Shown: positions 38,429-40,919 of the stretch, piece by piece | Layout: each line of letters begins with the position of its first letter | Numbering within the stretch: the stretch's first letter is position 1 | From: Mycolicibacterium madagascariense | GTDB lineage: Bacteria; Actinomycetota; Actinomycetes; Mycobacteriales; Mycobacteriaceae | DNA: 64,000 bases | NCBI RefSeq assembly: GCF_010729665.1 | Contig: NZ_AP022610.1 | Span: 1,674,001 to 1,738,000 of the forward strand | Direction of reading: 5' to 3' | Position numbers and translations under genes: made by a program | Notes under the pieces: model-generated | The model's input: only the letters and a program-made list of their open reading frames with translations | Databases searched by the model: none | Told to the model about the DNA's origin: nothing

Positions 38429-39619
38429 TCACGAGAACAATTCGGCGATCAGGCGCTGACGCTCCGACCAACTGGCCGCGCGCAGATCCGCGTGACCGCG
38501 CTCGGTGACGATGACGTCGACGTCGTGTGCCGGGGTCGATGCCGGTCGGCTGAGTCGCTCGACCAGGGGTGGCCTTCCGTTGACGCGCGACGGCACGGCG
38601 ATGATCGACAGGCCGCCTTCGCTGAGTCGGCCGGCGGTGCAGTAGTCCGGGTGACCGCCGATGCCGCCGAACACCTTCTCGCCGATGCCTTCGACGTTGA
38701 CCTGGCCGTAGGGATCGATCTCGATGGCGGTGTTCACCGCGACGAACGGCACTCCGCGCGACAGTCGGGTGAGGTCATGGGTGTGTTCGACGCCGTGCAG
38801 GATGGCGCGGCCGTCGGCCCAGTCATACAGCTCGTCACCACCGAAGAGGTACGTCGCCGACGGCGTTCCCTCGAGCAGACCGTTCTTGTCGAGGTCGACC
38901 ACGGCGTCGGTGAGCATGCCGGTATCGATCCGCAACGGCACCTGCGCGCGTCGCAAGAGCGCCGTCCCGAGCTGACCCGGCCCGTACTGCAGACGGGCAC
39001 CAGCCGGGATCAACCGCAACACGTGATCGGCGAGCGCGTCGTGCAGCGGTTCGGGATCGCGCTGCGGCACCTTCGTCAGGCCGAATCGCACCGTGCCGAG
39101 CACCTCGACCTCGGAGTCGTCGAGCGCGGGTCCGGCGGCCGCAGCGGGCGCCCTGGCGTCGACGACACCCAAAGTCCGCGTGCCGGAGTCGAACACCGCG
39201 CGCTGCCAGGACACCTCGCTGCCGAACTGCAACCGGCCGTCACGACGCACCAGTCGGGTGAGCAGCACGTCGGGCCGCAACACGTCGGCCACGAGCGCAG
39301 GGATCGCGGCCAACCGCGTCGGCAGGAAGCGCGCGGTGGGGCTGCGCAAGACGTCGCGCACGCCCCACCCCGGCATCAGCGCCACCACCTCGGCGAAGGC
39401 GTCGGCGTCCAACCCGTCGACGGGCGTCGGCAGCCAACCCACGATCAGACGGATCCCACCCACCTCGCGCGCGACCGCGCTCAGCGACGCTCCCACTGAT
39501 GCGTCGTCGTCGAGGCGGCACAGCGTGCCCACGCCATCACCGAGTGCCAGCGTCATCCCGGGGCGCAACGCTCGCCGCAGCGCACCCTCCAGGGCGGTAG
39601 CCGTCAATCGCATCGTCAT
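38429..39619 (-). CDS. Acetyl-CoA hydrolase/CoA-transferase family protein (Cat1-like)
   Basis: A 396-residue family I CoA-transferase resembling acetyl-CoA hydrolase/4-hydroxybutyrate CoA-transferase. Its C-terminal half holds VNTAIEIDPYGQVNVE (catalytic-Glu region), GGIGGHPDYCTAGRLSEGG and VDVIVTERGHADLR. It should transfer or hydrolyse CoA. ATG 39619 overlaps (ATGA) the stop of the last of four 11-codon minicistrons in a tandem repeat, which favours this start over the ATG two codons later. No other ribosome site is evident. Confidence 0.87.
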   Translation of the reverse strand: MTMRLTATALEGALRRALRPGMTLALGDGVGTLCRLDDDASVGASLSAVAREVGGIRLIVGWLPTPVDGLDADAFAEVVALMPGWGVRDVLRSPTARFLPTRLAAIPALVADVLRPDVLLTRLVRRDGRLQFGSEVSWQRAVFDSGTRTLGVVDARAPAAAAGPALDDSEVEVLGTVRFGLTKVPQRDPEPLHDALADHVLRLIPAGARLQYGPGQLGTALLRRAQVPLRIDTGMLTDAVVDLDKNGLLEGTPSATYLFGGDELYDWADGRAILHGVEHTHDLTRLSRGVPFVAVNTAIEIDPYGQVNVEGIGEKVFGGIGGHPDYCTAGRLSEGGLSIIAVPSRVNGRPPLVERLSRPASTPAHDVDVIVTERGHADLRAASWSERQRLIAELFS

Positions 39620-39743
39620 CGGGATACTCGGCTATTCGCGCAAGCGCTCATCGGGATACTCGGCTCTTCGCGCAAGCGCTCATCGGGATACTCGGCTCTT
39701 CGCGCAAGCGCTCATCGGGATACTCGGCTCTTCGCGCAAGCGC
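39616..39743 (-). repeat. Four tandem 32-bp repeats forming coupled minicistrons
   Basis: Units at 39616-39647, 39648-39679, 39680-39711 and 39712-39743 are identical except for one base in the first. On the minus strand each encodes M-S-A-C-A-K-S-R-V-S-R then TGA (Asn for Lys in the last unit read), and each TGA overlaps the next ATG as ATGA. The chain begins at the dehydrogenase stop (39744-39747) and ends at the CoA-transferase start (39619). Confidence 0.95.
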
Positions 39744-40889
39744 TCATCGCGGTTCTTTGGGGAGCCCCAAGACCCGCTCCCCGAGGATGTTGCGCTGAAT
39801 CTCGCTGGTGCCGCCCAGGATGGTCTGGGCTCGACCGACGAGCATGTGGTGCACCAGTTCGTCGTCCGCAGGGTCGACGCAGGCGTCCACCCCGAGCACC
39901 TCGGTGGCCATGTCGCCGAGGTCCTGATCGGTCTCCGAGGTCATCAGCTTGAGCACCGAGAACGCCGGTGACGTCAGATCACCCGACGCGATCGCGCGCT
40001 GCCAGGTGTAGCGCAGCAGCCACATTCGAGACCACAGCTTCGTCATCGACCGCCCCAACACCGGGTCGAGGAGATCGTGTTCGCGCGCCGCATCCACCAT
40101 GCGCTCGTGGAGTCGAAACATCGACACGGCCTGGGTGCCCAGCGTCAACCGTTCGCGGCCGAGCGTCACCATGGCGACGGCCCAACCCTGCCCCACGTCA
40201 CCCACGAGCGCGTCGTCTCCGACTTCGGCGCCGTCGAAGAACACCTCGTTGAACTTGCTCTCACCGTCCATCTGGATCAGCGGCCGCACCGTCACGCCAG
40301 GGGTGTCCATCGGCAGGACGAACATCGACAGGCCGCGATACCTGTCGGGACCCGTGCGCGCCAGCAGCAAGCCGTAGTCCGCCGAGGCGGCCGCCGAACT
40401 CCACACCTTCTGACCCTCTATGCGCCAACCGTTCTCCGTACGCTCGGCGCGAGTGCGGAGGCCGGCGAGGTCCGAGCCCGCGCCCGGCTCGGAGAACAGC
40501 TGCGTCCAGACGGCGTCGCCGAGCCGGATCGGCTCCAGATAGCGCTCCTTCTGCTCGGGGCTGCCGAAGGCGATCAGTACCGGACCCACCAGATCGACGC
40601 CGGTGATGTTCAGTTGGCGGGGCACACCTGCGCGGGCGCACTCCTCGGCGAAGACGGCCTGATACGCAACCGACGCTGCGGCACCGCCGAATTCGAGCGG
40701 CCAGTCCAGGCATGTGTAACCGTGATCGGCGAGATACCGGTGCCACGCACGGCCCGGCTCGACGTCGTGGGCAGTGGGCGTGGGTCCGTAGTTCCGCAAC
40801 CCGGCGGGTTTCGGTGCGCTGGTGAGGAATTCGCGAAATTGCGCGCGGAGGGCGCCGATGTCCTCGACGAGGTCGGGGGAGGCCGTCAC
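39744..40889 (-). CDS. Acyl-CoA dehydrogenase alpha-type subunit
   Basis: A 381-residue dehydrogenase with FSEPGAGSDLAGLR, EGQKVWSS, YRGLSMFVLPMDTPG and C-terminal ILGGTSEIQRNILGERVLGLPKEPR. GTG 40889 is chosen for GAAGGAG 6 nt upstream; extension to 40916 would include that site. It pairs with the beta-like gene at 40920-42065, giving the third alpha/beta set in the window. Its TGA overlaps the first ATG of the tandem-repeat minicistrons. Confidence 0.92.
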   Translation of the reverse strand: MTASPDLVEDIGALRAQFREFLTSAPKPAGLRNYGPTPTAHDVEPGRAWHRYLADHGYTCLDWPLEFGGAAASVAYQAVFAEECARAGVPRQLNITGVDLVGPVLIAFGSPEQKERYLEPIRLGDAVWTQLFSEPGAGSDLAGLRTRAERTENGWRIEGQKVWSSAAASADYGLLLARTGPDRYRGLSMFVLPMDTPGVTVRPLIQMDGESKFNEVFFDGAEVGDDALVGDVGQGWAVAMVTLGRERLTLGTQAVSMFRLHERMVDAAREHDLLDPVLGRSMTKLWSRMWLLRYTWQRAIASGDLTSPAFSVLKLMTSETDQDLGDMATEVLGVDACVDPADDELVHHMLVGRAQTILGGTSEIQRNILGERVLGLPKEPR

Positions 40890-40919
40890 CGAGACTCCTT
40901 CAGAAGAGCTGGCCACTGG

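Follow-up and report, generated by a model that had tools for sequence, protein, structure and literature searches.

REP and BIME repeats are short, dispersed and extragenic, with a palindromic unit that has a stable stem-loop. The unit of a MIRU carries a small ORF which overlaps both of its neighbours, and DTGA was reportedly named as the MIRU insertion target by Supply et al. (1997). Our further descriptions of MIRUs are drawn from excerpts of PMC12548453, PMC2734929, PMC4213456 and PMC2453075. According to these excerpts, MIRUs are apparently mobile, insert at start codons and hold an internal ORF coupled at -4 spacing, with a probably minimal effect on expression (PMC12548453); they measure 40-100 bp and occupy 41 places in M. 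tuberculosis H37Rv (PMC2734929). The MIRUs between senX3 and regX3 have units of 77 and 53 bp, are confined, according to the excerpt, to M. leprae and the M. tuberculosis complex, and lie in a region with promoter activity, which means that such arrays can also act in other ways (PMC4213456). For VNTR3239 (ETR-F), at rnc/fpg1 of M. tuberculosis, the excerpted text reports flanking genes separated by just a few bases in the non-tuberculous species that it lists and a relation between repeat length and mRNA level, longer repeats going with higher fpg1 mRNA, yet in one passage the strain of repeat type 6 is the lowest (PMC2734929). Excerpts of two other papers report that MIRU repeat numbers show no evidence of convergent evolution (PMC7481465) and an overrepresentation of RTGA-coupled small ORFs in mycobacteria (PMC4633059).

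The window analysed here, a 64-kb stretch of Mycolicibacterium madagascariense DNA, holds four 32-bp units at 39616-39747 of the minus strand, each with an 11-codon ORF and with an ATGA overlap at every join. The features of the junction are the following.

39744..40916, minus strand: acyl-CoA dehydrogenase gene, upstream (ORF list; Pfam Acyl-CoA_dh N, M and C; frame trace)
39712..39747, minus strand: mini-ORF 1, MSACAKSRVSR, first unit (32-bp match 39712-39743; unit match, frame trace)
39680..39715, minus strand: mini-ORF 2, MSACAKSRVSR, second unit (32-bp match 39680-39711; unit match, frame trace)
39648..39683, minus strand: mini-ORF 3, MSACAKSRVSR, third unit (32-bp match 39648-39679; unit match, frame trace)
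39616..39651, minus strand: mini-ORF 4, MSACANSRVSR, fourth unit (32-bp match 39616-39647; unit match, frame trace)
38429..39619, minus strand: CoA-transferase gene, downstream (ORF list; Pfam AcetylCoA_hyd_C; frame trace)

The earlier note on this DNA had described four near-identical 32-bp units, with 11-codon ORFs joined by ATGA overlaps, between the dehydrogenase stop and the CoA-transferase start. Tracing of the frames found every join in place, on a strand that the note had left unstated and that is the minus strand. The dehydrogenase TGA (39746-39744, minus strand) lies inside the first ATGA, the mini-ORF ATGs are at 39747, 39715, 39683 and 39651 of the same strand with the TGA of each within the following ATGA, and the TGA of mini-ORF 4 overlaps the CoA-transferase ATG at 39619 within the last one. 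Units 1-3 are identical and unit 4 differs by one base change. Tandem Repeats Finder gave this array a score of 261 (period 32, 4.2 copies, 99% matches) against 62 for the second-best array in the window, and a chance repeat was therefore rejected. An in-frame coding minisatellite has a period divisible by three and one reading frame; here the period is 32 and there is a stop in every unit.

The 32-bp unit is a member of a dispersed, genus-wide mycobacterial repeat family. A 17-base core, allowing up to 2 mismatches, matched 37 places in the window genome, compared with 12 for the reversed pattern. Ten further places in this genome were inspected (L036-L045), and units or arrays were present at nine of them: at seven they lay directly at a gene junction, with a period of 32 or 33 or as a single unit, at L042 in a longer spacer and at L039 inside coding sequence. 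The tenth, L044, was a core match within a gene. Across the genus, a 20-base core with at most 1 mismatch was found in 99/148 sampled genomes (the reversed control was zero in every row), and a tandem pattern in 134/297 genomes, again with controls at zero. Because a family sample gave matches in 4/6 same-genus genomes but in only 1/95 genomes of other genera, the family seems to be confined to the genus.

The consensus of the approximately 32-bp unit, ATGAGCGCTTGCGCGAAGAGCAGAGGGCACCG, was drawn by eye from position counts. One-mismatch variants of the core are frequent among the matches listed (GCTCGC for GCTTGC; AAGAA or AAGAC for AAGAG), and the unit tail is common to the copies of one array and different between loci. 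Array periods were taken from 145 rows covering 24/134 matching genomes, with five rows of array G201 C10 left out; the G280 row was entered as period 30, the true value being 27, in the same phase class, and the 92 arrays include G107, seemingly a chance match inside a gene. All 92 had a modal unit between 26 and 33 bp among the matches listed. Within this scope the period was of the form 3n+2 in 66/92, 3n in 23/92 and 3n+1 in 3/92; it was 32 in 61/92, 33 in 18 and 31 in 3 (31 versus 33, p 0.0015). A single array of period 52 was seen, at L151, where three copies seemingly take in flanking sequence, as if the upstream flank had been caught up in a tandem duplication.

The position of the units relative to genes was determined for 128 loci, fetched regardless of context as a discovery set and a second set, and counted after removal of duplicates within each set, not between sets; 73 loci entered the discovery set, 5 of which were duplicates. 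Left out of the position and frame count were L044 (the match within a gene), L100, L104 and L106 (repeats of others) and L102 (another genus). The upstream-stop rule was rewritten at this count, after the second set had been fetched. Among the 98 loci with a sense upstream coding signal, the upstream stop lay exactly at +1 or -2 of the unit start codon in 81, as ATGA (+1) in 59 and as TGATG (-2) in 22, and elsewhere in 17. The upstream signal was unclear in 20 of the remaining 30 loci, and the upstream gene was antisense in 10.

At L080, L096, L156, L179 and L193 a unit stands exactly at an upstream stop with no clear sense gene behind it, and the target may consequently be the context of a stop codon, not a start codon. 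CG directly precedes the ATGA of the unit in 54/59 loci, compared with 13/42 unoccupied DTGA junctions, an enrichment which could reflect either a target preference or a part of the element itself; the insertion at L065 follows AA. Extended homology between unit and target was tried and rejected, the second codon being AGC at 18/43 coupled starts compared with 11/42 background DTGA junctions (p 0.17).

The rule for the downstream frame was already in use before the second set was fetched. Overlap needs the downstream gene to be in phase 2 relative to the start of the last unit, and this was the case for 37/48 assignable loci of the discovery set and 30/36 of the second (67/84 in total), with another frame in 17/84. 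When homologous downstream genes were grouped across both sets, phase 2 was found in 47/61 families, where one third would be expected (p 3e-12). Where the unit was coupled upstream, the mini-ORF stop overlapped the downstream start at 43/57 loci (39 DTGA, 4 TGATG). Much of the phase-2 excess follows partly automatically from the entry of a 32-bp unit into an already coupled junction, and the loci in which the closest downstream start lies at a distance other than 32 are more telling on frame keeping: 18/28 of these are still in phase 2 (p 8e-4), with coupled starts at 29, 35, 41 and 44. A complete relay chain was present in 32/37 and 26/27 loci; same-length shuffles pass this test in 0.57 and 0.67, which makes the chain test supportive and not decisive, and the frame test the better of the two. 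Together these results are good evidence that the element keeps stop-start coupling. The tendency of length variants to keep the frame, together with the absence of Shine-Dalgarno enrichment in the units (see below), favours termination-reinitiation. In 3n arrays the units run together in a single frame, and a stepwise relay is thus not universal.

Orthologous junctions with and without units were compared by eye. At 24 loci related to the window junction, 16 were bare DTGA overlaps, two were occupied and six were otherwise different (L057, L060 and L063, plus L067-L069 from other genera). Copy number at this dehydrogenase/CoA-transferase junction thus differs between species, with four units in the window, two, with a different tail, at L055, one at L065 and none in 16 relatives. 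L046, at 86% protein identity the nearest of the 24, has a bare junction. L057 holds an unrelated spacer in which a small ORF can likewise be read, closing with a TAGTG overlap. A later search found any CoA-transferase match in 21/61 relatives and close orthologues in only three other genomes of the genus. Two of these, L230 and L231, are bare TTGA overlaps; the third, L229, has a 17-nt spacer from ATGA to GTGA that forms an ORF of six codons in the coupled frame and may be what is left of an element after loss of its core.

The second locus examined is what we take to be a YrbE-like permease pair. Five of its 30 orthologous junctions were occupied (L198, L202, L203, L205 and the diverged L210), 11 were bare overlaps and 14 had other spacers, again judged by eye. 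At L203 the unit ATG reads ATT, and a GTG one codon upstream overlaps the upstream stop in the same mini-ORF frame. Because many orthologous junctions are bare stop-start overlaps (16/24 and 11/30), the element most likely enters junctions that are already coupled; these comparisons suggest that it spreads by insertion, probably followed by local tandem amplification. A different short recurring spacer (GCGATGGTGA... then GATGAG) was observed at the permease stop-start junction of L216, L217, L218, L221 and L223, in genomes that lack the 32-bp element; it is possibly another junction repeat.

A separate promoter and a strong internal ribosome site for the CoA-transferase had been named beforehand as findings that would speak against a relay. 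A simple scan, which cannot exclude a promoter, gave no sigma-70-type promoter or terminator match in 39400-40100, and an equally simple and equally non-excluding comparison with the anti-Shine-Dalgarno tail gave weak pairing at the CoA-transferase start (-2.5 kcal/mol); in eleven relatives with bare sites the pairing ranged from -2.1 to -5.2 kcal/mol. The units were rejected as a Shine-Dalgarno module, since 115 internal units averaged -5.7 kcal/mol, weaker than the -6.9 of shuffles, and -6 kcal/mol was reached by 48% of them versus 61% of shuffles. Some units may nevertheless bind ribosomes unaided, given that 48%. The fold of the array was not unusual (z -0.50), and the sole Rfam match, mir-1986, scored 21.1 against a cut-off of 50; a structured RNA was rejected on these grounds.

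We consider it highly probable that a dispersed mycobacterial repeat of approximately 32 bp, which enters stop-start overlaps (DTGA or TGATG), makes up the array in four tandem copies, with an adapter ORF relaying ribosomes to the CoA-transferase. Each copy carries an 11-codon ORF that shares bases with the upstream stop at its start codon and with the next start at its stop codon, and a ribosome finishing the dehydrogenase would re-initiate on successive mini-ORFs and lastly on the CoA-transferase. As 32 is 3n+2, coupling would stay intact at any copy number. The overlaps, the weak CoA-transferase site, the lack of a promoter or terminator match and the ordinary fold all favour termination-reinitiation as the route to the CoA-transferase, and from these sequence features a ribosome relay in the cell appears plausible. 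The evidence against it is that 17/98 upstream stops lie elsewhere, 17/84 loci are in other frames, 23/92 arrays are 3n, shuffles often pass the chain test, some units may attract ribosomes directly and some stand at a stop that lacks a sense gene behind it. The relay by termination-reinitiation put forward in the earlier note is partly upheld: its anatomy is real and is found again, with evidence of a kept coupled frame, at many unrelated junctions of the genus. The array is thus part of a dispersed repeat and no local invention, which the note had missed.

What the number of copies does is a separate matter. We find it fairly likely that the element is near-neutral at its junctions, the adapter ORF making insertion tolerable while arrays grow and shrink via slippage or unequal exchange and copy number has no regulatory role. 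The scattering of units over unrelated genes and the variation of array size at one and the same junction point in this direction, as does the minimal impact on the target gene proposed for MIRUs in an excerpted review (PMC12548453); on the other hand, excerpts of PMC2734929 link tandem repeat length to fpg1 mRNA, in passages that are not uniform on the direction. It seems rather unlikely that copy number is a dial, in which every unit would be a lossy re-initiation step and the array would set the ratio of CoA-transferase to dehydrogenase. Such tuning would fit the four intact relay steps, the weak Shine-Dalgarno at the CoA-transferase start and the copy numbers of 4, 2, 1 and 0 among species, but the bare junction in 16/24 relatives makes a dial dispensable, and the lack of convergent evolution of MIRU repeat numbers in the excerpt of PMC7481465 speaks against tuning.

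We regard as very improbable a promoter, attenuator or RNA-structure element in place of a translational adapter: the MIRU-holding senX3-regX3 intergenic region does drive senX3-independent expression (PMC4213456, in excerpt), but a local promoter or terminator was rejected for want of a match in 39400-40100, the array fold and the single Rfam match far under its cut-off argue against structure, and neither would predict the observed frame bias. That the 11-residue peptide is itself functional is barely credible. In its favour, MSACAKSR returns at the head of the peptide, owing to the repeated core DNA; a conserved peptide was rejected in view of common one-mismatch core variants that alter residues, a tail that varies widely and the reading of the same DNA elsewhere in another frame, as DERLREEPAST repeats.

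That other reading was observed at L039, approximately 2020-2480 (window genome C1:4218820-4219270), where the repeat has a 33-bp form. Translated in frame, it gives an 11-residue motif (DERLREEPAST or a variant of it) 14 times over, immediately ahead of a nicotinate phosphoribosyltransferase domain. Having a period divisible by three and one reading frame, this 33-bp relative is an in-frame coding minisatellite, and the element seems to have been absorbed into coding sequence. At L038, approximately 1985-2050 (window genome C1:4832284-4832350), two 33-bp units separate a response regulator from a histidine kinase, much as MIRUs separate senX3 from regX3. We offer tentatively, as a possibility we would not bet on, a mobile genus-wide family of approximately 30 bp, shorter than MIRUs, with its own re-initiation adapter and with some copies absorbed into coding; as its units would enter overlapping stop and start codons, operons would gain translational relays of variable copy number.

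If each unit is a re-initiation step, these junctions offer a natural series of 1, 2, 3 and 4 or more mini-ORFs of nearly the same sequence, a ready-made test which would probe how far bacterial ribosomes pass successive termination and re-initiation. The element would also illustrate how operons can take up a spreading repeat and still keep their translation coupled, and its units may serve as typing markers for non-tuberculous mycobacteria.

Literature searches with core strings returned no mycobacterial paper, only matches whose titles concern wheat and a human/mouse metabolic gene, and within the literature searched no title named such a unit of approximately 32 bp. Among described systems, REP and BIME repeats share with the 32-bp unit that they are short, dispersed and extragenic, but the array here has no significant fold (z -0.50) and its position is set by stop-start overlaps. 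VNTR3239 likewise consists of intergenic tandem repeats; its units, however, are of 55 and 79 bp and reportedly do not occur outside the M. tuberculosis complex, and its effect was measured on mRNA rather than translation (PMC2734929, in excerpt). In the RTGA-coupled small ORFs the TGA also overlaps the start of the next gene, but these are discussed, in the excerpt of PMC4633059, at the start of leaderless transcripts, whereas the present small ORF belongs to a repeated, dispersed unit inside an operon. MIRUs come closest. Like them, the 32-bp family is dispersed, often tandem, intergenic and variable in copy number, it stands at start codons with an internal ORF coupled to its surroundings (81/98 upstream, 43/57 downstream), and its unit bears a small ORF overlapping both neighbours. 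Unlike them, it has a unit of approximately 32 bp, outside the 40-100 bp given for MIRUs in the excerpts, and it is widespread in the genus, in contrast to the range given there for the senX3-regX3 MIRUs; a published senX3-regX3 primer, used to seek MIRU sequence, matched 0/396 genomes of the genus. As the unit is below the quoted MIRU length and the likeness is one of description only, we do not file it as a MIRU, even though it is MIRU-like in its working. The finding is real and more general than a view of the single window would give, a junction element of the known MIRU-like kind with a shorter unit, and from the likeness of the descriptions we would class it as a short, MIRU-like junction element, a dispersed insertion-type repeat.
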